NCBI GenBank assembly: GCA_007128865.1
Contig: SKWP01000162.1
Span: 1 to 14,891 of the forward strand
Origin: Paracoccaceae bacterium
Lineage (GTDB): Bacteria > Pseudomonadota > Alphaproteobacteria > Rhodobacterales > Rhodobacteraceae
Length of the DNA: 14,891 nucleotides
Reading direction: 5' to 3'
The notes under the pieces are model-generated. The model did not search any database, had not been told where the DNA came from, and saw only the letters and a program-made list of their open reading frames with translations. Both the position numbers and the translations under genes were made by a program. This document shows positions 1 through 14,714 of the stretch, in pieces (the first letter of the stretch is position 1; each line of letters begins with the position of its first letter).

Positions 1-158
1 CGGCCATTGCGGCCACGCAACGCGAAGCATCGGTGCTGGCATGCGGTGTCGGTGAGGGCTTGCTGGTGCTCGACCGCAGGACGCGGCACGAGGATCGGAT
101 CATCACCTCTGTCAAGCTGGTTTTTCACCCCGGCTACCGGATGCACACGCAGAGCTGA
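1..158 (+). CDS. GntR-family transcriptional regulator, C-terminal end (UTRA domain), partial
   Basis: The reading frame is already open at the window edge (first full codon at base 3) and ends at a TGA at 156-158, giving the last 51 residues. The end of the protein has the pattern of the HutC/FarR-type UTRA domain: a REASVLACGVGEGLLVLDR stretch, then a strand with IITSVKLVFHPGYRMH just before the stop. UTRA domains bind the small-molecule effector of GntR regulators; the DNA-binding helix-turn-helix lies upstream, outside the window. The gene points the same way as the enolase-like gene and the sox operon that follow, which makes it a candidate local regulator responding to the substrate or an intermediate. 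That role is inferred from position only. Family assignment is fairly secure for so short a piece. Confidence 0.75.
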   Translation, partial: AIAATQREASVLACGVGEGLLVLDRRTRHEDRIITSVKLVFHPGYRMHTQS

Positions 159-299
159 AATCGTATTCCGCCGATCCGGTCGATCCCGGCGGGCCGCAGG
201 CCGTTTCATGATCGCGCATGGCCGACCGAACCGATCGAACGGGTTCCGCATCTGAAGGATTCGGCATCACGACCCGCACGGTCCGATGCCGGTCGTTTC
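159..299 (+). other. short gap where the enolase cap-domain coding sequence should be
   Basis: There are 141 bases between the GntR stop and the first usable start of the enolase-like frame. None of the three forward frames resembles an enolase-superfamily capping domain, and no clear promoter or hairpin is visible. A normal family member would need roughly 95-100 more codons in front of the preserved part, which do not fit here. The simplest reading is that a deletion joined the end of the regulator gene region to the middle of the enolase gene. Confidence 0.45.
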
Positions 300-1169
300 G
301 TGCCGTGGTCTTGCCCCCGCTTCGCCGGCCGGCTTCTGGCCGGAATCGAGATGGCATTGTGGGATATCATGGGCAAGGCGGCCGAGCGGCCGGTGCATGC
401 GCTTCTGGGTGGGGCGGTTCACGACCGTATCGGGTATCATGGCTTTGCGATGGGCGCCGATGCAGCGGAAATTGCCGCCGAGGCGGGCAGGTTGGCGGCA
501 AACGGCCTTGACGTCATTTACATCAAGGGTGGTCGCGGTCTCGAAGAGGATGTGGAAACGGTGGCTCGGGTCCGCGAGGCCATCGGGCCCCGGGCGCGCC
601 TTCGCATCGATCCGAACGAATCCTGGTCGCCGCTGGCGGCGCGGCAGGCCATTGCCCGAATGGCGCCGCATGACCTCGAGTTCGTCGAACAACCCTGCAA
701 TTGCGAAAGCATCCCGGCACTGGCGCAGATCCGTGCGGTCTCGACCGTGGGTATCGCCGCAGACCAGTGGGTGTTCACGCCGTTCGAGGCTTTCGAGGTC
801 TGCCGGAGCGGCGCTGCGGACCTGATCGTGATCGGCCCTCACGAGACCGGAGGTCTTGCCGGCATGGCCGCCCTCGCCCGTGTCGCCGAAGCTGCCGGGC
901 TGAACATCTGCATTCGCGGCCTGTACGAAACCGGGATCACCGCATGTGCCGCCCATCAGCTGGCGGCAACATGCCCGAACCTCGACGATGGCAACCAGAA
1001 CATGATCGCCTTTCTGGAATGGGACATCATCGCTCGACCCGACAGGCGCCCCAAACAGGGCTCCTTGGCGGTGCTGACGGCTCCGGGGCTGGGCTTTGAA
1101 CTCGACCCGGACGCCGTGGCGCGTGTCGCCGAGCTTCATCGACGAAGCGGGCCGGCAACCGCCGGCTGA
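300..1169 (+). CDS. mandelate racemase/muconate lactonizing enzyme family protein, lacking its N-terminal cap domain
   Basis: The 289-residue frame (GTG start at 300, the first start in frame) matches the barrel part of an enolase-superfamily enzyme. These enzymes abstract a proton alpha to a carboxylate and stabilise the enolate on Mg2+. Visible landmarks are the GIEMALWDIMGKA helix (residues 15-27), IKGGRG with Lys76, and three candidate metal ligands: Asp104 in RIDPNESW, Glu130 in FVEQP and Asp155 in ADQW. GLYETGI follows near residues 207-213. Full-length relatives have about 370-400 residues. Here the frame begins at the very end of the capping domain that closes the active site, and the upstream gap is too short to hold the rest. 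No Shine-Dalgarno sequence is evident before the GTG. The second lysine typical of the MLE subgroup is not obvious: the position reads IGPHETGGL. The exact substrate cannot be assigned. It is probably a remnant pseudogene, or a gene damaged by a local deletion. Confidence 0.7.
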   Translation: MPWSCPRFAGRLLAGIEMALWDIMGKAAERPVHALLGGAVHDRIGYHGFAMGADAAEIAAEAGRLAANGLDVIYIKGGRGLEEDVETVARVREAIGPRARLRIDPNESWSPLAARQAIARMAPHDLEFVEQPCNCESIPALAQIRAVSTVGIAADQWVFTPFEAFEVCRSGAADLIVIGPHETGGLAGMAALARVAEAAGLNICIRGLYETGITACAAHQLAATCPNLDDGNQNMIAFLEWDIIARPDRRPKQGSLAVLTAPGLGFELDPDAVARVAELHRRSGPATAG

Positions 1170-1226
1170 CCGTCCCGCCATCCCGATAAGACCAGTATCC
1201 CGCGGCCACGGATGAGCTGTGTATCC

Positions 1227-2474
1227 ATGCGCCATTCCTTTCTGAACCTCCTGCGTCAGGGATTGTCGGGTCATCGCGGATGGCCGCAGGCGTGGCGCAA
1301 TCCGGAACCCCGCCGCAGTTACGAGGCGGTGATCGTCGGCGGCGGCGGGCATGGGCTGGCGACGGCCTACTACCTTGCAGGAGAGCATGGTCTGACCGAC
1401 GTCGCGGTGCTGGAACGTGGCTGGATCGGTGGCGGCAATACCGGGCGCAATACCACCAACGTGCGATCCGACTACATGTATCCTGAAAGTGCCGCGCTCT
1501 ATGACCTGTCCCTGCGGGTGTACGAGGGGCTGGGCCGGGAACTCGACTTCAACATCATGCTTTCGCAGCGTGGCTGGCTGTTTCTGATCCACGACCTGCA
1601 CCAGATGGAAACCGCCCGACACAAGGCGAACTGGATGCAGTGCAACGGCATTGACGGGGTGATCGTGGACAGTGCCGAAGCAAGGCGCATGCTGCCGGCG
1701 CTGAACCCGGCCGCAGATGCACGCTACCCGGTGATCGGCGCATTCCCGCAGCGTCGTGGCGGCACCATCCGGCATGATGCCGTGGCCTGGGGATACGCCC
1801 GCGCTGCCGACCGGCTCGGGGTGGACATCATCCAGAATTGTGCCGTCGAGGGTCTTGTCATGAACGGCGGCTGCGTGACGGCTGTGCAGATCAGCCGAGG
1901 CACCATCGGTTGCGGGCGCATGGGTGTCGCGGCCGCTGCGTGGACCGCCAGGGTAACGGCCATGGCCGGCTTTCCGCTGCCCATGACCAGCCACATCCTG
2001 CAGGCCATGGTCACCGAACCGGTGCGGCGCTGTCTTGACCATGTGGTGATCTCGCCTGCCACCGGCGCTTATGTGAACCAGACACGGAAGGGCGAACTGG
2101 TCATTGGCGGGATCATGGACCTGTACCAGAGCTTCAGTCAGCGCGGCACCTATCCGAGCATCGAAAAGGTCGTTGCTGCCGTGGTGGAAATGTTCCCGGC
2201 GTTTTCCTCGCTCAAGCTCATGCGCCACTGGGCCGGTGTGGTCGACATCACGCCGGATCGGTCGCCGATCATCGGCCCCAGTCCGGTGCCCAACCTGCAC
2301 CTGAACTGCGGTTGTGGTACGGGCGGGTTCAAGGCGATCCCGGCCGGTGGACTCCTGCTGGCCCACGCCGTTGCCACCGGCCGGCAGCATGCACTCGCCG
2401 AAGCCTTCGGCCTGGAACGCTTTCGCCTGAACGCGCTGGTCGACGAGGCTGCGGCTTCCGGCATCGCACATTAG
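1227..2474 (+). CDS. soxB: sarcosine oxidase subunit beta (heterotetrameric type)
   Basis: This is a FAD-dependent amine oxidase of about 415 residues, the usual SoxB size. With SoxA, D and G it oxidises sarcosine to glycine; SoxB holds the noncovalent FAD where substrate is oxidised and shares the covalent FMN at the SoxA interface. The N-terminus has the dinucleotide-binding VGGGGHGLATAYYL motif, then GGGNTGRNTT. The histidine in GGTIRHDAVAWGYARAAD matches the FMN-attachment histidine of characterised SoxB. The C-terminal NCGCGTGGFKAIPAGG closes the FAD site. An in-frame ATG at 1212 would add five residues. I prefer 1227 because family members begin M-R-x-S/Y ahead of the GLSGHRGW segment; neither start has a strong Shine-Dalgarno sequence. 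It leads an operon, with soxD starting 8 bases after its stop. No frameshift or missing motif was seen, in contrast to soxA. Confidence 0.93.
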   Translation: MRHSFLNLLRQGLSGHRGWPQAWRNPEPRRSYEAVIVGGGGHGLATAYYLAGEHGLTDVAVLERGWIGGGNTGRNTTNVRSDYMYPESAALYDLSLRVYEGLGRELDFNIMLSQRGWLFLIHDLHQMETARHKANWMQCNGIDGVIVDSAEARRMLPALNPAADARYPVIGAFPQRRGGTIRHDAVAWGYARAADRLGVDIIQNCAVEGLVMNGGCVTAVQISRGTIGCGRMGVAAAAWTARVTAMAGFPLPMTSHILQAMVTEPVRRCLDHVVISPATGAYVNQTRKGELVIGGIMDLYQSFSQRGTYPSIEKVVAAVVEMFPAFSSLKLMRHWAGVVDITPDRSPIIGPSPVPNLHLNCGCGTGGFKAIPAGGLLLAHAVATGRQHALAEAFGLERFRLNALVDEAAASGIAH

Positions 2475-2482
2475 GGGGCGCC

Positions 2483-2776
2483 ATGATCGTCATTCGTTGT
2501 CCGCATTGTCAGGTCGAGCGTCATGAGGATGAACTGTTCTACGGCGGCGAGGCGCTGCCGCCGCGCCCGTCCGATCCTTTGCAGCTTTCCGACCCGGAGT
2601 GGACCGGGCGGCTGTTCTTCCGGTCCAACCCCGAGGGCGCCGTGATCGAGGACCGGTGCTGCGCCGCCGGCTGCGGTCACTGGTTCCGGGTGCGGCGCTG
2701 CACGGCCAGCCATGCGATACTCGATGTCGCTCCGCCGCCGGCGATGCCCGTTCCGCTGCCGGAGTTCAGCTCGTGA
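2483..2776 (+). CDS. soxD: sarcosine oxidase subunit delta
   Basis: This small protein of 97 residues is the zinc-binding delta subunit of heterotetrameric sarcosine oxidase, a structural component that caps the complex. The start is the ATG at 2483, preceded by an AGGGGG Shine-Dalgarno four bases upstream; the frame is open further upstream, but that part overlaps soxB. Family landmarks are CPHC near the N-terminus (Cys6, Cys9), the YGGEALPPRP and RSNPEG segments, and AAGCGHWF. In relatives the second pair of zinc ligands is His and Cys spaced four apart. Here the histidine position is Cys60 and the partner is Cys64, so the site may be four-cysteine. Its stop codon overlaps the GTG start of soxA (GTGA at 2773-2776), suggesting translational coupling. 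Confidence 0.92.
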   Translation: MIVIRCPHCQVERHEDELFYGGEALPPRPSDPLQLSDPEWTGRLFFRSNPEGAVIEDRCCAAGCGHWFRVRRCTASHAILDVAPPPAMPVPLPEFSS

Positions 2777-3330
2777 GTGGCGGATACCGGCTCGATCAGG
2801 GCGGCAGGATAAACCGCGCCCGCCCTGTGTCCTTCCGGCTGGACGGACATCACATGCAGGGATTTGACGGCGACAGCCTGGCCTCGGCGCTTGTCGCCAA
2901 CGGAGTGCGGGTCGTGGCGCGCAGCACCAGGCTTCGCCGCCCGCGCGGGATCATGGCGCTGGGCCCCGAGGATCCCAACGGGTTGTTCAGGGTCAGAGAC
3001 GGGCATGGCTCCGATCCTTGTGCCAGGGCCGGGCTGGTGCCGCTGGTCGAAGGCATGGAGGCCGAAACCCTGTCCGGCCGGGCTGGTCCGCGGCTGGATC
3101 CGCTGGCGCCTGTCCAGGCCCTGGCCGGCTTCCTGCCCGCGGGCTTTTATTGCAAGACCTTCAAGTGGCCGGGCTGGAGCTGGTACGAAGGCGCAATCTG
3201 GTCAATGACAGGCCATGGAAGCGTCGAAGCCGCGCCCGATCCGCGTCGTCGCGAAATGCGCCATGACAGCTGCGATGTTCTGGTGATCGGTGCCGGTCCG
3301 GCCGGACTTGCGGCCGCGCGAGCCCTGGCC

Positions 3331-3335
3331 GGGCC
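3331..3335 (+). other. first soxA frameshift: one G short
   Basis: Frame 1 encodes GAGPAGLAAARALAG up to 3333. From about 3336 the protein continues in frame 3 as RRVLLADARPQAGGSLLWEE, the expected strand and loop after the nucleotide-binding motif. The sequence reads GGCC-GGG-CC where GGCC-GGGG-CC would keep the frame and give ALAGAGRRVLL. Frame 1 stays open to a stop at 3741 but no longer resembles SoxA after this point. Confidence 0.8.
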
Positions 3336-3677
3336 GGTCGGCGTGTCCTGCTTGCCGACGCCCGGCCGCAGGCTGGTGGAAGCCTGCTGTGGGAAGAAAC
3401 GCGCATCGACGGCCAGCCGGGCATCGACTGGGCCGCATCCGTTGTCGCCGGGCTTTGCGCCAACGGTCACAGATGGCTTCCCGACACCACGGCAACCGGC
3501 GCCTATGAGGGCGGGATGTTCACCCTGCTGCAGGCCCTGCGCGACGACCGGGGGCTTGTCGGCGAACGGATCTGGAAACTGCGCGCCCGTGCGGTTGTCC
3601 TGGCAACCGGCGCGCATGACCGCCCGATGCCGTTTGCCGACAATGATCGCCCCGGCATCTTTCTGGCGCGGGCGGTG

Positions 3678-3682
3678 CGGGG
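3678..3682 (+). other. second soxA frameshift: one G short
   Basis: Frame 3 encodes NDRPGIFLARAVRG up to about 3682; the protein then continues in frame 2 as LIGRYGVAPGRRLAILTN. The run at 3679-3682 has four G; a fifth would join the two pieces seamlessly (RAVRGLIGRYG). Unshifted, frame 3 ends at a TGA at 3729-3731. Confidence 0.8.
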
Positions 3683-5484
3683 CTCATCGGGCGCTACGGC
3701 GTGGCGCCTGGCCGGCGGCTTGCGATCCTGACCAACAATGACGAGGGCGCGCTGACCGCGCTTGTGGCCCGTCAGGCGGGTATGGAGCTTGCCGTGCTGG
3801 CGGATACGCGCCCGCGCAATTCCGCGCCCCTTTCCGTCGTGGCCGAATCCCGCGGCGTGCCCTGCCTTTTCAAGGCCGAATGCACAGGCAACGGCGGGCG
3901 GAGCGGGCTGCGCTGGATTTCCGTCCTGGCGTCGGGACAGGACCGGCGCATAGCCTGCGATGCCCTGGCGGTGACGGCCGGGACAATCCCGGCCCGGCAG
4001 TTGGCCGCGCAGGCGGATCTCCGGGTGGCCTTTCAGGCCGATACCGAACCGGCCTTCGCAACCGCACCCATGATTGCCAGCGACGGCACCGTTCCCTGGC
4101 TCGTGGCGGGCAGCGTGACCGGGGCAGTCGGGCTCCAGGCGGCACTGGCGCAGGGTCATGCTGCTCCGACCCACCTCGGGATAACGCCCGGCCCGGCCAT
4201 CGAAGGCCCTGTTGCAAGTATGGACCTGGCGGTTGGCGGCCTGACTGGCCCCTGGCGGGCCCGGCGCGCCAGGGACAGCCGTGTCTGGGTGGATATCCAG
4301 AATGACGTGAAGCTGAGTGATCTGCACCTTGCCGTGCGCGAAAACTATGTCCACCCGGAACACCTGAAACGCTATACCACCCTTGGCATGGGCACAGACC
4401 AGGGCAGGACTGCGACGGCCAACGGCATGGCTGTCCTTGCCGATCTGACCGGCCGGGATCCGGCGGCAGTTGGCGCCACCCGGCTTCGGCCACCTGCCAT
4501 CGCCATGCGCATGGGGACCATCGCGCATCTGCGCCAGGGTGATTGCCACGAACCGCGCCGGCAGCTTCCGGCCGCCGCCGTTCATCATCGCGTCGGGGCC
4601 ATCATGGAGGACTTCGGCTGGCAGCGCCCGGACTGGTATGGCGGCAACGGCGCAGACCGTGATGCAGCGGTCGCTGCCGAAAAGCAGGCGGTGCGCCAGT
4701 GTGTCGGCGTTTTCGACGCGTCGCCCCTGGGCAAGATCGAGGTCGCCGGTCCCGACGCCCGCAGCTTTCTTGACCGGCTCTATGCCGTTGATCTGACCCG
4801 TCTCCGCCGGGGGCGAATACGCTATGGGCTGATGCTGAACGAAAACGGAACCATCCTGGATGACGGGGTTGTCGCCTGTCTTGACGAGACCCTTTTTCTG
4901 GCCGGTCCGAGTTCGGCCAACGCCGGCCATGTCGCGCGCTGGCTGCAGCGCTGGCACCAGACGGAATGGCCCGAGCTGCGGGTTTCCATCAGCGATGTGA
5001 CGGTCCAATGGGCCACGCTGGCGCTGGCGGGACCGCAGGCGCGGGCGCTGTTGTCGATGCTGGAACCGGAATTCCCGATGACGGACTCCGAACTGCCGCA
5101 CATGTCGGTTGCCGAAGGCCGGGTTGCGGGACTGCCGGCGCGCATCGCGCGTGTCAGTTTCACCGGTGAGGTGCAATTCGAGGTTTCGGTGCCGGCTCGC
5201 GACGCTGCGCCGCTGCTTGGCCGGATGCTGGACCATGCCCTGGCAATGGGGGGCCGTCCCGTGGGTCTGGAGGCCTGGCTGCAATTGTGGATCGAGAAGG
5301 GATACATCCACCTCGGCACCGAAACCAACGGCCGAACCACCCCCGATGATCTTGGTTTCGGGGCGCTGATCGCGCGCAAGCAGGCGGGTTTCATCGGCAA
5401 GCGCGCGCTTGCGCTTCCCGGCGCCGGCGGCGCGAGGCGAGAGCAGCTTGTTGGCCTCCGCGCGGTCTCGGGCCGGCTGAGGGC

Positions 5485-5490
5485 GGGGGG
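5485..5490 (+). other. third soxA frameshift: one G short
   Basis: Frame 2 encodes GLRAVSGRLRAGG across a run of six G at 5485-5490. The expected C-terminal barrel continues in frame 1 as RILCDGKARPPCPTIGQVTS and runs to the proper stop at 5716-5718, which overlaps soxG. A seventh G restores the frame. Unshifted, frame 2 ends at 5545. Confidence 0.8.
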
Positions 5491-5714
5491 CGCATCCTGT
5501 GCGACGGCAAGGCAAGGCCGCCCTGCCCGACTATCGGTCAGGTGACATCGGCATGCCACAGCGATGCCTGCGGCGGACCCATCGCGCTGGCGCTGCTCGA
5601 AGCCGGCCGCAGCCGCATGGGTGAGCGGGTTCGCGTCTATTCGGAGGGCGAGGTTTCGGTGGCAGAGGTCTGCAGCACCGTCTTTCTCGACCCCGAAAAC
5701 CGGAGGTTGAGTCA

Positions 5715-6344
5715 ATGATCGATGCCACAGGGATGACAGGGCTAGAAGCCCGGGAAACGCTGCACGGCCGGGTATTCGGGAGCGGTGCGGTTGATTTCTT
5801 GCCCTTGCCGGCCGGTGGGGCATTGTTGCTGACCGCTGCAGTCGAGGCCAGGGCGGTATCCGAACCGCTTGGCCGGCTGCTCGGGCTGCCGGTGCCGATG
5901 CAGCCATGGCAGACCGAGACGCACCGGGGCAGAATGCTGCACTGGATTTCGCCAAGGTCATGGCTGCTGTCCTGCGATCAGGACGATGAGGCCGCGCTTG
6001 CGGCAGCCGTGCTGCGCGCCTTTCCTGATCGCTGTCTGCATGCCTGCGCGCAGTCGAGCCGCATCTCGCGCTTCGGGCTGCGTGGCGAGGGGGCGGAAGA
6101 CCTCTTGCGCCAGATCGGCTTTCTTGCGCTGGAGCCCGGCGGCATCGTGCCGGGCGGATTTCGCCGCACCCTGCTGGCAGGACAGCCAACCCTTGTTTGG
6201 CGCATCGGCCCGACCGAATGGCAGCTGGGCGTGGACCGCGACAAGGCCGACCATCTGCGCGGCTGGGTCTTGCGGATCATGCGCGACGAGGCCGCCAGCG
6301 ACCGGATAACGGCCATCACCGGCACTCAGGAACGGAGGGCATGA
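5715..6344 (+). CDS. soxG: sarcosine oxidase subunit gamma
   Basis: This 209-residue protein is the gamma subunit of heterotetrameric sarcosine oxidase, a GcvT-fold-like accessory subunit without its own flavin. The length is as expected for the family. Features seen are the PMQPWQTE segment, ISPRSWLLSC in the first half, the QSSRISRFGLRGEGAEDLL stretch in the middle, and PGGFRRTLLAG with WRIGPTEWQLGVDRDKADHL towards the end. The ATG at 5715 has GGAGG eight bases upstream and overlaps the last codon and stop of soxA (ATGA at 5715-5718). Its translation may therefore normally depend on ribosomes finishing soxA, so the soxA frameshifts could lower its output. Its own stop overlaps the start of the next gene in the same way. 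The family is poorly conserved, so the call rests partly on its place in the operon. Confidence 0.9.
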   Translation: MIDATGMTGLEARETLHGRVFGSGAVDFLPLPAGGALLLTAAVEARAVSEPLGRLLGLPVPMQPWQTETHRGRMLHWISPRSWLLSCDQDDEAALAAAVLRAFPDRCLHACAQSSRISRFGLRGEGAEDLLRQIGFLALEPGGIVPGGFRRTLLAGQPTLVWRIGPTEWQLGVDRDKADHLRGWVLRIMRDEAASDRITAITGTQERRA

Positions 6345-8800
6345 CCGTGACACAGACAGCAACCGACAATTCAGGCGATGGACGCACCCTGCCCGGACAC
6401 ACGCGGGTCGTCGTGATCGGCGGCGGTGTGGTGGGCTGTTCCATCCTCTACCACCTGGCAAAGTACGGCTGGACCGACGCGGTACTTCTGGAACGCGACG
6501 AACTGACCTCGGGATCGAGCTGGCATGCGGCCGGCCAGATACACACCATAAGCTCGGACCCGAACATAAGCCGGCTGCAAAGCTACACGATCGACCTTTA
6601 TCGCGAGATCGAGGAACTCAGCGGCCACAGCGTCGGGTTGAACATAACCGGGGGCTTCTACCTGGCCTCGAACCGTGACTGGTATGACTATCTCAAGCGC
6701 GAACGCTCCAAGGCCCGGTACATGGGGCTGCGTCAGGAATTCATCAGCCCCAGAGAGGTGGCCGAACGCCACCCCCTGATCGACCCCGGCCATTATCTCG
6801 CGGCATTGTGGGACGAGCAGGACGGTGATCTTGACCCCTCCGGCGCCACCTACGCCTTTGCAAAGGCAGCGCGCCGGCTGGGTGCAAGCTACTTCACCCA
6901 TACCCCGGTGATCGAGACCGCCCAGCGTCCGGACGGAAGCTGGGATGTGATTACCCCGCGCGGGCGCATCCATGCCGAAATCCTGGTGAACTGCGGCGGG
7001 CTGTGGGCGCGGGAGGTCGGCAGGATGCAAGGCGTTTCGCTGCCGGTCCAGCCGATGGAGCACCATTACCTTCTGACCGAGGCGATACCCGAAGTTGCCA
7101 ACCATCCCGGCCGGCTGCCCTGCGGTATCGATTATGAGGCCAATATCTATTTCCGCCGCGAACGGCAGGGCCTGCTGCTTGGCACTTACGAGCCCCGCGC
7201 AACGCCCTGGCAGGTCAAGGGAACCCCGCCGGACTTCGGACATGAACTCCTGCCGCCGGATCTCGAACGCATTGCAGACCGGCTCGAACTGGCCTTCGAG
7301 CGTATCCCGGCGCTTGCCACCGCAGGCATCCGGCGCGCGATCAACGGCCCCTTCACCTTCGGCCCCGATGGCAACCCGCTTATCGGTCCGGTGCCCGGCA
7401 TGCGCAATTGCTGGGTTGCTGTCGGGGTGATGGCTGGTTTCTGTCAGGGTGGCGGTGTTGGCCGCTCCATTGCGGAATGGATGATCGAGGGCGAACCTTC
7501 GATCGACATCGGTGCCATGGATGTCGCGCGCTTTGGCGCCTTTGCCACCGCCGACTGGGGCACCGTCAAGAGTGCCGAGAACTATGAACGCCGCTTCGTG
7601 ATGACCTTTCCCAACGAAACCCTGCCGGCCGGTCGCCGACAGAAGACCACCGCGCTTCATGACCGGCTTGTTGGCCGCGGTGCACGGATGGAGCAGGGCT
7701 TTGGCCTCGAACATGCACTGTGGTTTGCCGACGGGCCCGAGGATGCCTTCGAGGAGCCGAGCTTCCGGCGCAACCGCAGCCATGCCTATGTCGCCCGTGA
7801 GGTTGATGCGGTTCAGAAGGCGGCAGGCTGTGTCGAAACCGCGAATTTCAGCAAGCATCTTTTCACCGGCCCCGGTGCCGCCCGGTATCTTGACGAAATC
7901 CTGGCCGGTCGACTGCCGGCACCGGGGCGGGTGTCGCTGTGCCCGATGCTGACCCCGGGCGGGCGCCTCTATGGCGATCTGAGTGTCGGCTGTCTCGAGC
8001 AGGACCGCTACATGGTGATCGGTTCGGGCGCGATGCAGGAAGCGCATCGCCGTCATTTCGAGGCATTTCTGCCCCGCAACGGCGTGGAATACCGAAACGT
8101 CAGCGATGAATGGCACGGCCTGGCGCTGTCGGGCCCGAATTCGCGCGCGCTGTTGCAGCGTCTCTGCCGGGACGATCTCGGCGCGGAGGCGATGCGCTTT
8201 CGCGATCTGCGCAGAACAGTGGTCGGGGGTGTTCCCGTGTTGCTGCTGCGGATCAGCTTTTCGGGCGAACTGGGATACGAAATCCATTGCCCGCCAGCAT
8301 ATCTGCTGCGACTGAGCGAAGCCGTGGAAGACGCCGGCAACGATCTCGGGCTGCGCTGGTATGGCCTGCGCACGATGATGAGTCTGCGCCTCGAAAAGGG
8401 CTGGGGCGCGTGGGGGCTCGAATACCGGCCCGACTTCACCCCGGCCGAAGCCGGTCTTGCCGGTCTGATCGACTGGAAGAAACCCTTCATCGGGCGCGAG
8501 GCGGCATTGCGCGACCACGAGGCCGGACCGGCCCGCAAATTTGCCGTCCTCACGCTGGAGGCGGGCGACGCCGATGTTGTCGGTGACGAGGCAATCCTGC
8601 ACGACGGGCAGGCTGTGGGGTTTTTGACGTCGGGCGGCTTCGGTCACCGCACCGGCAACTCCATCGCCATGGGTTACCTGCCTGCCGAACTGACCGCTGA
8701 AGGGACCTTTGTCGAGGTCGAGATTCTGGGGGAGATGCGCAAGGCAAGGATCCGCCGGGACGCGTTGTATGACCCGGAAGGAAAGCGGATGCGCGGCTGA
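6341..8800 (+). CDS. dimethylglycine dehydrogenase/sarcosine dehydrogenase-like FAD protein with GcvT domain
   Basis: This 819-residue flavoenzyme is predicted to remove an N-methyl group from dimethylglycine, sarcosine or a similar N-methyl amine and pass the carbon to tetrahydrofolate. The FAD-dependent oxidase domain spans about residues 21-385, with VVVIGGGVVGCSILYHLA and, at 57-65, SGSSWHAAG, whose His62 matches the covalent FAD-attachment histidine of DMGDH and SARDH. The FAD-closing segment GPFTFGPDGNPLIGP lies at 336-350. An FAO_M-like linker is at about 390-445, followed by a GcvT N domain (ETANFSKHLFTGPGA, ISFSGELGYEIH) and a GcvT C-terminal barrel to about 805. The ATG overlaps the soxG stop (ATGA at 6341-6344) and has AGGAA eight bases upstream. 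A GTG at 6347 sits eight bases after GGAGG and is a possible alternative start. The gene is intact and has no electron acceptor encoded nearby, so it may use ETF or oxygen. Exact substrate unknown. Confidence 0.88.
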   Translation: MTVTQTATDNSGDGRTLPGHTRVVVIGGGVVGCSILYHLAKYGWTDAVLLERDELTSGSSWHAAGQIHTISSDPNISRLQSYTIDLYREIEELSGHSVGLNITGGFYLASNRDWYDYLKRERSKARYMGLRQEFISPREVAERHPLIDPGHYLAALWDEQDGDLDPSGATYAFAKAARRLGASYFTHTPVIETAQRPDGSWDVITPRGRIHAEILVNCGGLWAREVGRMQGVSLPVQPMEHHYLLTEAIPEVANHPGRLPCGIDYEANIYFRRERQGLLLGTYEPRATPWQVKGTPPDFGHELLPPDLERIADRLELAFERIPALATAGIRRAINGPFTFGPDGNPLIGPVPGMRNCWVAVGVMAGFCQGGGVGRSIAEWMIEGEPSIDIGAMDVARFGAFATADWGTVKSAENYERRFVMTFPNETLPAGRRQKTTALHDRLVGRGARMEQGFGLEHALWFADGPEDAFEEPSFRRNRSHAYVAREVDAVQKAAGCVETANFSKHLFTGPGAARYLDEILAGRLPAPGRVSLCPMLTPGGRLYGDLSVGCLEQDRYMVIGSGAMQEAHRRHFEAFLPRNGVEYRNVSDEWHGLALSGPNSRALLQRLCRDDLGAEAMRFRDLRRTVVGGVPVLLLRISFSGELGYEIHCPPAYLLRLSEAVEDAGNDLGLRWYGLRTMMSLRLEKGWGAWGLEYRPDFTPAEAGLAGLIDWKKPFIGREAALRDHEAGPARKFAVLTLEAGDADVVGDEAILHDGQAVGFLTSGGFGHRTGNSIAMGYLPAELTAEGTFVEVEILGEMRKARIRRDALYDPEGKRMRG

Positions 8801-8871: not shown

Positions 8872-8894
8872 GCCGGCGCGCGTGGTTGGCCGGC
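8872..8894. other. GC-rich inverted repeat between convergent operons
   Basis: The 118 bases between the dehydrogenase gene and the importer hold GCCGGC, an 11-base loop, then GCCGGC, a six-bp stem that could mark a transcript end for both convergent operons. There is no run of T after it on either strand, so it is not a standard intrinsic terminator. In such a GC-rich sequence it could arise by chance. Confidence 0.2.
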
Positions 8895-8918
8895 CGAGGT
8901 GATCGAACGGGTTTCGTA

Positions 8919-9770
8919 TCAACCGGGGGTGAGGCCCCGAAGCCTTTCGCTGCGCCGCCGCAACAGTTCGATGGTCACCAGCAGCAGGACCGAGATCAGC
9001 ACCATCAGCGTGGCCACGGCCAGAATGGTCGGGCTGATGTCCTCGCGGATGCCCGACCACATCTCGCGCGGGATGGTGCGCTGTTCCGGCCCGGCGATGA
9101 ACAGCACGATCACGATCTCGTCGAAGGAGGTGATGAAGGCAAACAGCGCCCCCGAGATCACCCCCGGCAGGATCAGCGGCATGGTGATCCGGAAAAAGGT
9201 GGTCGAGGGCGAGGCGCCGAGGCTGGCCGCGGCACGGGTAAGCGAATGGTCGAACCCGACCAGCGTCGCGGTGACGGTGATGATCACGAAGGGCGTGCCC
9301 AGCGCGGTATGGGCCAGGACCACACCCAGATAGCTTTGCGCGATGTTGAGTTGCGAGAAGAAAAAGAACATGCCCGCAGCCGAGATGATCAGCGGCACGA
9401 TCATCGGCGATATCAGCAGCGCCATCACCAAACCCTTGAACGGCATTTCCGACCGTGACAGGCCCAGCGCCGCCAGGGTGCCGAGGGTGGTTGCCAGGAT
9501 CGTTGCCGCGATGCCGATCATGAACGAATTGCGGATCGAACGCATCCAGCTGTCCGAGCCGAGGAAGTCCTGGTACCAGCGCAGGCTGTAACCCTCGGGC
9601 CGGAGCATCAGCATCTCGGACGTGAAGGTGAAGAAGGGCTGCGCGTTGAAGCTCAGCGGGATCATCACCAGAATCGGCGCCATCAGGAAAAAGAAGATGG
9701 CATAGCAGATCACCCGGAAGGTGTAGTACCAGATCCTGTCCTTCGTCGTGGCATAGGCGGGAAGGGGCAT
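8919..9770 (-). CDS. ABC transporter permease, PotC/YdcV-like
   Basis: This 283-residue inner-membrane protein is the second permease of a polyamine/opine-type (PotABCD-like) ABC importer. A first membrane segment covers about residues 17-40 and further hydrophobic stretches fall at about 82-104, 113-137, 146-171, 205-227 and 246-270, six in all, as usual for this family. The EAA motif that docks on the ATPase is at 179-204 (RAAASLGASPSTTFF then PLILPGVISG). The ATG at 9770 has AAGGAG nine bases upstream, and that Shine-Dalgarno overlaps the stop codon of the upstream permease gene, so the two are translated as a pair. It is the last gene of the minus-strand operon and converges on the dehydrogenase gene. 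The substrate cannot be read from this subunit. Confidence 0.92.
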   Translation of the reverse strand: MPLPAYATTKDRIWYYTFRVICYAIFFFLMAPILVMIPLSFNAQPFFTFTSEMLMLRPEGYSLRWYQDFLGSDSWMRSIRNSFMIGIAATILATTLGTLAALGLSRSEMPFKGLVMALLISPMIVPLIISAAGMFFFFSQLNIAQSYLGVVLAHTALGTPFVIITVTATLVGFDHSLTRAAASLGASPSTTFFRITMPLILPGVISGALFAFITSFDEIVIVLFIAGPEQRTIPREMWSGIREDISPTILAVATLMVLISVLLLVTIELLRRRSERLRGLTPG

Positions 9771-9783
9771 GGCGATTGTCTCC

Positions 9784-11085
9784 TTACCCGAGCTTCAGAC
9801 TGTCGGCGCCGACGAGCCGGTTATAGAGCCAGTAGAGCGCGAGCACGCCCACCAGCAGCATCGTGCCCAATGCCGCGGCAAGGCCCCAGTTGAGCGATTG
9901 CTGCATGTGCCGGGCGATTTCGTTCGAGATCATCCTGCCCGACTGGCCACCCACAAGTGCCGGGGTGATGTAATAGCCGATCGATATGATGAAGACGAGC
10001 ACGCCACCCGCCCCGATGCCCGGCAGTGTCTGCGGAAAATACACCCGGCGGAAGGCGGTGAAGGGCGTGGCGCCCAGGCTCTTGGCCGCGCGCATGTAGC
10101 TGGGCGGGATGGTGCGCATCACCGAATAGAGCGGCAACACCATGAACGGCAGCAGGATGTGGGTCATCGCGATGATTGTGCCGGTCATGTTGTAGATCAT
10201 CTGGATACGGTTGGCGTCGTCCAGCAGGCCGATGGCAACGAGGGTTGAATTGATCACCCCCTGCTGTTGCAGCAGCACGATCCATGCCGATGTGCGCACC
10301 AGCAGCGATGTCCAGAACGGCAGCAGAACACAGATCATCAGCAGGCTGGCATGGCGCATCGGCAGGATCGACAGGTAATAGGCGATCGGAAAGCCCAGCA
10401 GGAAGGTCAGGAAGGTGATTGCCACCGACAGCATGATGGTACGGACGAACAGCGAGACATAGATGCGCCGGTTCTCGTCGCGCATGATCACGCTGCCGTC
10501 CTCGTCGTACTGGCGGTCAAGCGCGGCGACATAGTAGGACGCGGTCAGCGGCCGGCCTTCGCGCTTGATGATGCGCCACAGTTCCGGCTGGCCCCAGAGC
10601 CGGTGCGAACTGACGAAGGCATCGCGATACGGAGCCTCGAAACCGGGGGCCGAGCGCGCGGTGCGCGATATGGCGCTGCGGGCGGCGCTGAGTTCATAGT
10701 TCAGCCTGATGCCGAGCGGTCCCATCGCCTGCTCGCGCCGCGGCCGTTCGGAATCGACAACAAAGTCGGCATGCAGGGCGGCAAACACCTCTTCGCCCGG
10801 CAATTCGCGCCCGTCCCAGTCGCGCAGCGCTTCCAGCGTGTTGGGAAGCGCCCGGACAACCTGCGGATTGTCGACGCTGCGCCACATCATCTGGGCGATG
10901 GGAAAGACAAAGAAGGTCAGGATGAACGCAAGCAGTGGCACGACCAGAAGAAAGGCCGCAACCTTGCGCCGCCGTTCGGCCCGGCGCAGCGCCGCCCGCA
11001 GGGGGGTGCCGTCGGCCGTTGTCAGGCGGCCGCTGGAGTCGGTCTGCGCATCTTCGAACGCCGCGCCGGCATCGGCCTGTGCCAT
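9784..11085 (-). CDS. ABC transporter permease, PotB/YdcU-like, with a large loop after the first membrane segment
   Basis: This 433-residue permease is the partner of the downstream one. The first membrane segment is at about 43-65 (FLLVVPLLAFILTFFVFPIA). A hydrophilic loop of some 140 residues follows (about 70-210), and the remaining membrane segments lie at about 212-240, 246-272, 300-323, 358-376 and 400-422. The EAA motif is at 332-357 (RAAKSLGATPFTAFRR, PQTLPGI). The loop makes it longer than E. coli PotB, and it probably faces the periplasm by the usual topology. The frame stays open upstream to 11349, but that part lies over the binding-protein gene. The ATG at 11085 is preferred because GGGGAA lies just upstream and the sequence after it begins a typical charged N-terminal tail. 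Confidence 0.92.
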   Translation of the reverse strand: MAQADAGAAFEDAQTDSSGRLTTADGTPLRAALRRAERRRKVAAFLLVVPLLAFILTFFVFPIAQMMWRSVDNPQVVRALPNTLEALRDWDGRELPGEEVFAALHADFVVDSERPRREQAMGPLGIRLNYELSAARSAISRTARSAPGFEAPYRDAFVSSHRLWGQPELWRIIKREGRPLTASYYVAALDRQYDEDGSVIMRDENRRIYVSLFVRTIMLSVAITFLTFLLGFPIAYYLSILPMRHASLLMICVLLPFWTSLLVRTSAWIVLLQQQGVINSTLVAIGLLDDANRIQMIYNMTGTIIAMTHILLPFMVLPLYSVMRTIPPSYMRAAKSLGATPFTAFRRVYFPQTLPGIGAGGVLVFIISIGYYITPALVGGQSGRMISNEIARHMQQSLNWGLAAALGTMLLVGVLALYWLYNRLVGADSLKLG

Positions 11086-11137
11086 GCTTGCTTCCCCGTC
11101 GGTTGGCGCCGGCCATTGCTGCCGGTCGGTTCTTGTT

Positions 11138-11166
11138 GGCCGGGTCCGCATGGCGCGGGCCCGGCC
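11138..11166 (-). other. intercistronic hairpin after the binding-protein gene
   Basis: Read on the minus strand, GGCCGGG and CCCGGCC form a perfect seven-bp outer stem, and CCGC and GCGG add four bp inside after one mismatch, with a five-base loop. It lies 10 bases after the stop codon of the binding-protein gene and before the permease gene. No run of T follows, so full termination is unlikely. Hairpins here commonly protect the binding-protein mRNA from 3' decay and reduce read-through into the permease genes. Confidence 0.55.
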
Positions 11167-11176
11167 TGGCGGCAGA

Positions 11177-12283
11177 TTACTGCAGCATCCAGTTGGCGAA
11201 ACGCTCGCGCATCTCGTCGCCGTAATCGACCCAGAAGTCGTTATCGAGCACGATCGGCGCGAAATAGTTTTCCGGCGCGGTGGGCATGTGCGGGCCCATG
11301 TCGATGCCGAGATCGGCATGATCGCCCACCAGCGCGGCCGAGGACGCACGCGCCGGGCCGTAGCTGATGAACTTGGCCTGATCTGCCAGGCGCTGGGTGT
11401 CGGTGGCGAAATACAGGTAGTCCATCACCGCATCCAGGTTGCGCCCGTCGGCCGGCACCACCCAGCCATCCCATTCCACCACCTGGCCGTCCCAGATGAT
11501 TTCGGCATTCATGCCCTCGACTTCGATGGCATCGAACATCCGGCCGTTGTAGCCGGTGGCAAAGGCGACTTCACCATCGGCCAGAAGCTGGGGCGCCTGG
11601 GCACCTTCGGTCCAGAAGATGATGTGATCCTTGATCGTGTCGAGCTTGGCAAAGGCGCGGTCCACGCCTTCCGGCGTGCGCAGGACGTCATAGATATCGT
11701 CCGGGTCCACACCATCGGCATAAAGCGCCCATTCCAGATTGGTGCCGGGACGATCCTGAAGCGCACGACGACCGGGGAAGTTTTCCACATCGAACAGGTC
11801 GGCGATGGTTTCGGGCTGCCCGTCGGCGGGGAATGCATCCGGGCGGAAGGACAGCACGGTGGAATACACGATCTGCGGGATGAAGCATTCGCCAAGGCTG
11901 CCAGGCAGGAAATCCTCGGACGCAGGCGTGCCGTCAGGCGCCGCAGCAAGGATCGCGTCATGGTCGATCTGCATGATGATGCCTTCGTCGCAGGCAAGCT
12001 GCGCATCTGACGGCAGCATGTCGACGAGGTCCCATGTCACGTTGCCGGCCTGGGCCTGGGCCCGCAGCCCGGCAAGGGCGTTTGCCGAACCGTCATCGTT
12101 GATGATGGTCACATGCGGGTTCATTTCCATCCAGGGCTCGTGATAGGCGCGCACCTGGCTGGCGGTATAGGCCCCGCCCCAGGACACGATGGTCAGGGTA
12201 ACGGGCTCGTTGGCCTGGGCTGCACTCAGCGCCAGCAGGCTTGCGGCCGCGGTCGCGCCGGTGAGTTTCAGCTTGAATGCCAT
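11177..12283 (-). CDS. ABC transporter periplasmic substrate-binding protein, PotD/spermidine-putrescine type
   Basis: This 368-residue protein captures substrate in the periplasm and delivers it to the two permeases. A signal peptide is clear: Lys4 and Lys6, a hydrophobic stretch (TAAASLLALSA), and a likely cut after AQA at residue 24. The mature part opens with TLTIVSWGGAYTASQ, the first strand typical of the PotD-like (SBP_bac_8) family, and continues with the domain-crossing and lobe elements expected for its size. Cys98 and Cys133 could form a disulfide. The ATG at 12283 is preceded by a perfect AAGGAGGT, the strongest ribosome binding site in the window, which fits the excess of binding protein over transporter that such systems need. 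The family transports polyamines, opines and other organic cations or amino acids. A link to N-methylated substrates is inferred only from the neighbouring sox and dehydrogenase genes. Confidence 0.92.
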   Translation of the reverse strand: MAFKLKLTGATAAASLLALSAAQANEPVTLTIVSWGGAYTASQVRAYHEPWMEMNPHVTIINDDGSANALAGLRAQAQAGNVTWDLVDMLPSDAQLACDEGIIMQIDHDAILAAAPDGTPASEDFLPGSLGECFIPQIVYSTVLSFRPDAFPADGQPETIADLFDVENFPGRRALQDRPGTNLEWALYADGVDPDDIYDVLRTPEGVDRAFAKLDTIKDHIIFWTEGAQAPQLLADGEVAFATGYNGRMFDAIEVEGMNAEIIWDGQVVEWDGWVVPADGRNLDAVMDYLYFATDTQRLADQAKFISYGPARASSAALVGDHADLGIDMGPHMPTAPENYFAPIVLDNDFWVDYGDEMRERFANWMLQ

Positions 12284-12313
12284 TGAATGACCTCCTTGGT
12301 TGATGGTTCTAAA

Positions 12314-12360
12314 CCGGGTCGTGCCCGGCCTTGCGGTGACGCGCCGGCCCTGCCGGGCGC
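12314..12360 (-). other. two hairpins between the ATPase and binding-protein genes
   Basis: The 86-base gap after the ATPase stop holds two inverted repeats. One spans 12341-12360: five bp GCGCC/GGCGC, a one-base bulge, then three bp GGC/GCC around a three-base loop. The other spans 12314-12328: CCGGG and CCCGG around a five-base loop. Neither is followed by a T run. Together with the hairpin on the far side of the binding-protein gene they could set off a stable mRNA segment for that gene. GC-rich sequence makes small stems common, so the role is tentative. Confidence 0.4.
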
Positions 12361-12369
12361 CGGGTGGTT

Positions 12370-13473
12370 TCAGGACGGCATGTCGAGCGCGCGACAGTCC
12401 TTGGGCAGCCAGCCGACCTCGATGGTCGAACCGGGCTTGTGGCGCACCTGATCGGGTGCGTTGCGGGACTTCATGATGAAGTTTTCATTGCCCGCGACCT
12501 CGAGCCGGGTGCGGAAGACATCGCCCATGTAGATGAATTCCAGCACCTCGGCCCTGATGGTATGGGCATCCGGGTGCAGACGTTCCTTGTTGGCCTCGAC
12601 CCGTTCGGGCCGGATCGAAACCCGCGTGCGCTCGCCCGCGCGGGTCACGTTGACCGGGCGCGCATCGATGATTTCGCCGTTGTCCAGCTCCACCAGCGCC
12701 ACATCGCCGTGAATTTCCTTGATCACCCCGTCGAGCGTGTTGTTTTCGCCGATGAACTGGGCGACGAAGCTGTTCTGGGGTTCCTCGTACAGCACATCGG
12801 GCGGGGCCAGCTGCTGGATGCGCCCGTCGTCGAACACCGCGACATTGTCGGACATGGTCAACGCTTCGGTCTGGTCGTGGGTGACATAGACGGTGGTGAT
12901 GCCAAGATTGTGGGCAAGGCGGGTGATCTCGAACTGCATGTGCTCGCGCAGCTGCTTGTCCAGCGCGCCCAGCGGTTCGTCCATCAGCACCAGCTCGGGC
13001 TCGAACACCAGCGCGCGGGCCAGCGCGATACGTTGCTGCTGGCCACCCGACAGCTGCGCCGGACGGCGGTTGGCAAAGGCGCCCATCTGCACCATGTCGA
13101 GCGCGCGCGCGATCTTCTGTTCGCGTTCGGACCGGCCGAAGCCGCGAACCTCTAGCGGAAACGACAGGTTCTCGCCCACCGACATGTGCGGAAACAGCGC
13201 ATAATTCTGGAACACCATCCCGATCCCGCGCTTGTGGGGGGGGATGTTGTTGATCGGTCTGCCACCGAGAAGGATCTCGCCATGGGTGGCGGTCTCGAAG
13301 CCGGCCAGCATCATCAGGCAGGTTGTCTTGCCCGAACCCGACGGGCCGAGCATGGTCAGGAATTCGCCCCTGGCGATGCTGAGGTTGAGATCCTTCACGA
13401 CGAGCGTTTCGCCGTCATAGCTTTTCTGTACTCGGTCGAATACGACAAACCCTTCCGTGTCGTTTTCTGACAC
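12370..13473 (-). CDS. ABC transporter ATP-binding protein, PotA-like
   Basis: This ATPase of about 367 residues drives the importer encoded downstream. With the GTG start at 13473 the landmarks are Walker A GPSGSGKT at 43-50, Q-loop Gln89 in VFQNYALFPHM, signature LSGGQQQR at 141-148, Walker B VLMDEP around 162-167, and H-loop His199 in VTHDQTEAL. A C-terminal TOBE domain follows (QFIGENNTLDGV, then VSIRPERVEAN and EFIYMGDVFRTRLEV), as in PotA and other CUT1/MOI-type importers. A TTG at 13479 would add two residues, but it lies only two bases after the AGGGAG ribosome site, whereas the GTG at 13473 is spaced eight bases from it; I chose the GTG. It is the first gene of the minus-strand operon. 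Confidence 0.93.
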   Translation of the reverse strand: MSENDTEGFVVFDRVQKSYDGETLVVKDLNLSIARGEFLTMLGPSGSGKTTCLMMLAGFETATHGEILLGGRPINNIPPHKRGIGMVFQNYALFPHMSVGENLSFPLEVRGFGRSEREQKIARALDMVQMGAFANRRPAQLSGGQQQRIALARALVFEPELVLMDEPLGALDKQLREHMQFEITRLAHNLGITTVYVTHDQTEALTMSDNVAVFDDGRIQQLAPPDVLYEEPQNSFVAQFIGENNTLDGVIKEIHGDVALVELDNGEIIDARPVNVTRAGERTRVSIRPERVEANKERLHPDAHTIRAEVLEFIYMGDVFRTRLEVAGNENFIMKSRNAPDQVRHKPGSTIEVGWLPKDCRALDMPS

Positions 13474-13522
13474 TGGCAATTCTCCCTGTCACCATTCCGG
13501 CGGTTCCCGCCTCGTTGGTTCA

Positions 13523-14629: not shown

Positions 14630-14714
14630 GCGGGTGTGGCGGAACCGGTAGACGCACCAGATTTAGGTTCTGGCGCCGCGAGGCGTGGGGGTTCAAGTCC
14701 CTCCACCCGCACCA
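14630..14714 (+). tRNA. tRNA-Leu (anticodon UAG)
   Basis: This is an 85-base class II tRNA with the CCA end encoded. The acceptor stem GCGGGTG (14630-14636) pairs perfectly with CACCCGC (14704-14710), followed by A and CCA. The D-arm is GCG-GAACCGGTAGA-CGC. The anticodon stem CCAGA/TCTGG encloses the loop TTTAGGT, giving anticodon TAG at 14664-14666, which reads CUA and, by wobble, other CUN leucine codons. The long variable arm (GCC-GCGA-GGC) is typical of leucine tRNAs, and the T-loop is TTCAAGT with a GGGGG/CCCTC stem containing one G-U. The tig gene starts 23 bases later in the same direction. Confidence 0.97.

Follow-up and report, generated by a model that had tools for sequence, protein, structure and literature searches.

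A soxA gene with three single-base frame changes, very probably a decaying pseudogene, in a sarcosine oxidase cassette of a Paracoccaceae draft genome

Organization of the sarcosine oxidase locus

The stretch of DNA analyzed here, called the window throughout, is an entire contig (C44, 14891 b) of the draft genome G000 of a Paracoccaceae bacterium, which comprises 491 contigs and 2.84 Mb and is 66.9% complete. It carries the soxB, soxD, soxA and soxG genes of a heterotetrameric sarcosine oxidase, and its soxA is very probably a real pseudogene partway through decay. The gene order is regulator 3' end, enolase-like open reading frame (ORF), soxB, soxD, soxA, soxG and dehydrogenase, with four ABC transporter genes on the opposite strand. 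The named relatives among the SoxA matches listed belong to Ruegeria, Paracoccus, Yoonia and other Proteobacteria, at about 50% identity.

The features of the sox genes are given below in nucleotides (nt) and amino acids (aa). P0001 and P0121 are allelic protein representatives of SoxA, and L158 is a locus of another genus of the same family.

1212..2474, + strand: soxB, open (TIGR01373, 580.8 bits, cut-off 529.45)
2483..2776, + strand: soxD, open, divergent (Pfam SoxD 76.8 bits, cut-off 27; TIGR01374 70.7 bits, below the cut-off of 116.5)
2773..3333, + strand: soxA piece 1, frame 1 (tblastn)
3331..3333, + strand: break 1, one base short, not in allele P0121
3334..3680, + strand: soxA piece 2, frame 3, with an out-of-frame extension to a stop at 3729-3731, likewise in P0121
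3679..3682, + strand: break 2, one base short, common to P0121 and P0001
3683..5484, + strand: soxA piece 3, frame 2, inside an ORF (3701-5545, 614 aa) that starts and ends as P0001 does
5485..5490, + strand: break 3, one base short, common to the window and P0001
5488..5718, + strand: soxA piece 4, frame 1, the C-terminus, in register with the soxA stop
5715..6344, + strand: soxG, open, divergent (TIGR01375 43.8 bits, below the cut-off of 143.95; 39% identity to the soxG of L158)

A Pfam search with soxG gave no match. The initial annotation described soxB, soxD, soxG, the dehydrogenase gene and the four transporter genes as open, which holds. However, its picture of healthy neighbors is too favorable, given the substitutions in soxB and the truncated enolase-like gene described below.

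Reading frames of soxA

The intact SoxA P0002 (970 aa) was compared by tblastn with positions 2601-5900 of the window. Residues 3-204 match frame 1 (52% identity), residues 186-301 frame 3 (57%), residues 304-896 frame 2 (51%) and residues 889-968 again frame 1 (56%), and SoxA P0026 as query gives the identical series of four frames. Both alignments agree with the initial annotation, which had followed the protein through frames 1, 3, 2 and 1 with changes near 3331, 3679 and 5485. The claim that one base is short at each change is borne out by length: up to the end of P0121 the window has 956 nt where 957 are required, and the whole of soxA (2773-5718) has 2946 nt, three bases short of the 2949 that 983 codons would require. 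The end of the gene is preserved, as had also been stated, with the stop codon at 5716-5718 overlapping the soxG start at 5715.

Relative to intact homologues, the reading frame is disrupted by three single-base losses and distributed over four frames. Among the 119 best other SoxA homologues listed, 112 are single proteins of at least 900 aa (the seven shorter ones were left out). The window encodes no single protein above the TIGR01372 whole-protein cut-off of 1164 bits; its two long soxA ORFs score 182.9 and 528.8 bits.

The attribution of every break to a G missing from a G run could not be sustained. At breaks 1 and 3 the affected codons encode glycine whatever their third base; among the glycine codons of 178 long ORFs from 74 other contigs, 53% are GGC and 20% GGG. 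A lost G at break 2 would yield glycine, at a position where the 112 homologues of at least 900 aa have R (98), Q (11), or E, C or K (one each) and none has G. Counted together, G runs and C runs of three and of six are more frequent in soxA than in a genome sample (34.3 versus 27.0 and 0.68 versus 0.25 per kb), while runs of four and five are fewer per kb than in that sample. Break 3 sits in a run of six G. Loss of G in G runs was rejected as a common cause, since protein evidence cannot prove it and the fit at break 2 is poor.

Allelic representatives of SoxA

The alleles are cluster representatives found by protein searches with the frame-1 and frame-2 ORFs of the window, and they are proteins, not DNA. 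The best match of the frame-2 ORF, P0001 (614 aa), has the same start and the same out-of-frame tail and differs at 7 of 614 residues; its cluster contains four sequences, the longest contig being 23541 b, compared with 14891 b for that of the window. P0121 (319 aa), found with the frame-1 ORF, represents a cluster of seven with a longest contig of 29842 b. Piece 1 of the window differs from it at 3 of 186 residues and piece 2 at none of 115. The frame of P0121 runs through break 1 without interruption, and after break 2 it closes with the same out-of-frame tail as that of the window. The soxB representative P0241 probably lies on one contig with P0121, because its longest contig is also of 29842 b. 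We infer that P0001 and P0121 come from other strains.

Since P0001 has the window's frame-2 ORF together with its tail, breaks 2 and 3 recur outside the G000 assembly. Among these protein representatives, break 2 is present in both P0121 and P0001 and break 3 in P0001 (P0121 ends before it). Break 1 is absent from P0121, the sole allele that covers it (P0001 does not reach this point); as P0121 reads through, break 1 either arose later or is a miscall. Breaks 2 and 3 would thus predate the split of the sequences, and break 1 would be younger or an error. The initial annotation had offered either local miscalls or decay after one inactivating hit. The recurrence of breaks 2 and 3 in P0001 and P0121 argues for decay in their case, and a miscall is still to be considered for break 1.

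The shared frames could also mean that SoxA is synthesized in two or more functional pieces (319 and 614 residues), or that these are rejoined by ribosomal or transcriptional slippage. The 614-residue frame has equal ends in the window and in P0001, P0121 shares break 2, and the six-G run at break 3 might in principle be slippery. However, break 3 removes the last 80 residues of the homologues (889-968 of P0002), and most of the best other homologues listed (112 of 119) are single proteins of at least 900 aa. No slippery heptamer was recognized by eye at breaks 1 and 2, and, as described below, invariant residues are being lost. The frame transition is not conserved among homologues, the full-length ones using one frame and the soxA of L158 being open over 977 codons. 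Because break 3 cuts the C-terminus and invariant residues are lost, a functional split or recoded SoxA can hardly be credited. The same very low probability applies to the 319- and 614-residue frames being kept as a split SoxA, for instance with the larger one as a folate-handling subunit for the adjacent dehydrogenase.

Frame changes elsewhere in the genome

A six-frame codon-usage detector was applied to 75 contigs (421880 b including the window, 15% of the genome). The other contigs were 74 of 490, seven picked for GCV_T or SoxA matches and the rest taken by contig number. The sensitivity of the detector was 27 of 70 simulated one-base deletions located at least 400 nt from the ends of ORFs of at least 1200 nt. 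It flagged 20 places, including breaks 1 and 2 of the window but not break 3, probably because piece 4 is short. Sixteen of the other 18 were looked at: 11 were judged by eye to be ordinary gene boundaries and five were searched in Pfam. L163 is the boundary between two known genes, and L104, L189 and L191 have no Pfam family on one or both sides; with L160 and L197, which were also flagged, the latter three are counted as five undecided places.

There is one credible case (L117) in the 407 kb outside the window. Counting L117 alone, 0.02 frame changes are expected in 2946 nt (upper bound 0.10), a value that rises to 0.11 (upper bound 0.25) if the five undecided places are included. Similar frame changes, which an artefact would make common across the genome, are thus rare in the contigs sampled. 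L117 itself (contig C7, about 2600-3541) also looks decayed and consists of an aldose epimerase fragment followed, with a frame change, by a Gfo/Idh/MocA oxidoreductase fragment without a start.

These counts bear on the view that soxA is intact and each of its three breaks an error of sequencing or assembly. Such errors would be in keeping with a fragmented draft (491 contigs, 66.9% complete) and with the lack of break 1 in P0121, and several assemblies could carry one platform-wide error. Nevertheless, this view is very unlikely. Breaks 2 and 3 recur in representatives that have other residues, credible frame changes are rare in the 74 other contigs, and the single exact overlap of 121 nt with another contig suggests a short-read graph assembly, in which indels in runs of three to six bases would be uncommon. 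A shared systematic miscall was likewise set aside as unlikely for breaks 2 and 3, since representatives with other residues share both; break 1 may be one.

Real decay could also be combined with a single error, breaks 2 and 3 being real and break 1 a miscall in the assembly. This form of the decay explanation is possible, although the less likely one. P0121, the one allele covering break 1, lacks it, but with frame changes so rare elsewhere, an error is unlikely to have struck a gene that was broken already, and pseudogenes would be expected to gain further lesions.

Constraint on SoxA and SoxB

The SoxB of the window differs from P0241 at two residues, both at columns identical in all 119 other SoxB. 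At residue 368 (2313-2315) the window carries C instead of the W found in 119/119 homologues, and P0241 carries V instead of G at residue 78. In SoxA, G at 566 (112/112 homologues) and P at 351 (101/112) are replaced in P0001 by D and L, respectively, N at 69 (96/112) is replaced in P0121 by D, and at position 106 both alleles depart from G (112/112). Four of the 12 allele differences therefore fall on 100% invariant columns (SoxB 2/2, SoxA C-part 2/7, SoxA N-part 0/3).

The controls were disjoint pairs of homologues sharing at least 80% identity (51 pairs for SoxB and 20 for SoxA), in which 13 of 2030 SoxB differences and 9 of 2798 SoxA differences fall on invariant columns. At columns that are 98% conserved, the values are 4/12 for the alleles, 55/2030 for SoxB and 31/2798 for SoxA. 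Four hits on invariant columns were observed where 1.7 are expected if evolution is neutral and 0.045 at the control rate, indicating relaxed constraint, in small numbers. The soxB hits suggest that breakage of the complex is followed by the loss of invariant residues in this still-open gene.

Departure from the consensus was also considered as proof of decay. The window departs at 16 of 200 conserved columns in SoxB and at 22 of 174 in the SoxA C-part. This measure was dropped because an open SoxB, P0242 (82% identity), departs even more often, at 21 of 202 columns. P0242 (on a 1910-b contig) shares many of the consensus departures of the window soxB, and a divergent SoxB clade extends beyond the window sequence.

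The neighboring genes and the accessory nature of the cassette

The remaining features of the window are as follows.

1..156, + strand: regulator gene, 3' end (121-nt exact end overlap with G000 contig C271, whose open 221-aa ORF enters the same frame)
219..252, + strand: copy 1 of a 34-nt dispersed repeat, with copy 2 at 8887-8920
300..1169, + strand: 5'-truncated ORF of the enolase superfamily, mandelate racemase type (homologue match and Pfam)
6341..8800, + strand: dimethylglycine dehydrogenase-like protein, open (DAO, FAO_M, GCV_T and GCV_T_C above cut-off)
8919..13479, - strand: four polyamine-type ABC transporter genes, namely two permeases, a binding protein and an ATPase (ORFs and family search)

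The overlap with the end of C271 covers window positions 1-121, and none was found at the other end of the window. We take the regulator to be of the GntR type and hutC-like, and the ORFs of C271 are presumably hutF/hutI-like. The second permease (within 9784-11349) presumably deserves its name, which comes from the initial annotation. A tRNA-Leu gene (14630-14714) lies just ahead of an ORF that runs off the contig end.

The enolase-like ORF lacks its first ~116 codons, a truncation that the initial annotation had missed. It matches only residues 117-392 of the L158 homologue (at 309-1136), and in Pfam MR_MLE_C is complete while MR_MLE_N is represented only by positions 94-117 of 117 (the last 24). 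The other enolase-family matches in G000 (67% of the genome) are all at 33% identity or less. The truncation begins no more than 310 b from the end of the contig, which may therefore be a chimera. The junction (about 253-308) lies just after repeat copy 1. Both copies are in direct orientation and flank the cassette, the one at 8887 being directly 3' of the opposite-strand permease gene. With up to three mismatches to a degenerate pattern, the repeat has six forward copies in G000; there were none in five congeners, nor any for the reversed control.

The next best match of the SoxA C-part in 295 sampled family genomes (own included) is that of L158 (contig G217:C47, 50%); the others listed reach 36-43%, and no SoxA match above 44% was found in the five congeners. 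G000 itself has distant soxB, soxD and soxA genes on contig C427 (49, 36 and 40% identity), the value for SoxA being measured against P0026 (residues 1-968, one frame). Of the 120 family genomes searched, a set that includes G000, only eight have a dehydrogenase relative at 68-72%, and the copy in the window is therefore probably accessory as well; among the matches listed, many other family genomes have a relative near 50%. No soxB, soxD or soxG match was found in the 1.5-kb flanks of the eight 68-72% relatives; the flanks of L202 give a weak match to the enolase family (26%) and those of L203 a permease match (34%).

Decay of soxA

The best reading of these data is a redundant accessory enolase-soxBDAG cassette under decay. 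Single-base losses at breaks 2 and 3 would have occurred in a common ancestor of the window strain and the organisms of P0001 and P0121, splitting SoxA into open frames of 319 and 614 residues. After the lineages split, break 1 would have been gained in that of the window, unless it is one wrong base in the assembly. The lineages would also have gathered substitutions at invariant residues of SoxA and of the still-open SoxB. The first gene of the cassette, as assembled, lacks its 5' end. As predicted from the sequence, the function of SoxA would be lost. This loss is probably tolerated because of the second, distant soxB-soxD-soxA set on C427, redundancy being the presumed reason.

Several points weigh against this interpretation. 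P0001, P0121 and P0241 are protein representatives only, they may share a sample or platform, and the counts of their clusters may include the window's own protein. The allele differences number only 12, and substitutions in assembled contigs could be errors, which would look alike. One of the four hits, D106E, is at a site where both alleles are already off consensus; without it, SoxA alone gives 1/10 (P 0.03). In-frame piece 2, identical to P0121, has no departures at 22 conserved columns. Finally, departures at 7 of 207 invariant columns are seen in the dehydrogenase, compared with 0 to 5 in its eight nearest relatives (control alignment of 29 other loci), and accelerated evolution may thus extend beyond the sox genes. 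In this alignment L215 departs at 26 invariant columns and looks broken or misaligned.

The locus offers a small, clean case of operon decay in an uncultivated bacterium, in which alleles tell older from younger lesions. G000 should not be credited with the sarcosine oxidase of this cassette, and alleles should be looked for before clustered frameshifts in draft genomes are dismissed as errors.

Comparison with known systems

The four pieces of the window align in order with SoxA of heterotetrameric sarcosine oxidase (TIGR01372; PDB 2gag, 1vrq and others), and the soxB-soxD-soxA-soxG order of this system is also that of the window. In contrast to TIGR01372 proteins, the window has no single open frame, and its two long ORFs stay below the cut-off given above.

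The closest arrangement is that of L158 (G217:C47, an 11114-b contig), which has the same order enolase-soxB-soxD-soxA-soxG. Identities to the window are 63% for the enolase-like protein, 66% for SoxB, 54% for SoxD, 50% for the SoxA C-part and, as listed, 39% for SoxG. However, the L158 frames are open from stop to stop over 977 codons in SoxA and 403 codons in the enolase, and this contig has no match to the window dehydrogenase (outside SoxA) or to the transporter genes.

In Colwellia, as outlined in PMC3691474, an acquired sox operon adjoins betaine demethylation genes. Both loci thus have a heterotetrameric sarcosine oxidase operon beside genes of methylated-glycine catabolism. According to the same outline Colwellia grows on sarcosine, whereas the soxA of the window is broken and its cassette includes an enolase-superfamily gene.

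With prokaryotic small-indel pseudogenes, such as those treated by Pseudofinder (PMC9336565), the window soxA shares several indels, relaxed constraint in the frames that remain and intact homologues elsewhere. It differs in that its lesions can be partly ordered, since another allele lacks one of the breaks. In kind, the window soxA does not stand out among pseudogenes, but alleles that allow the lesions to be ordered are less usual.

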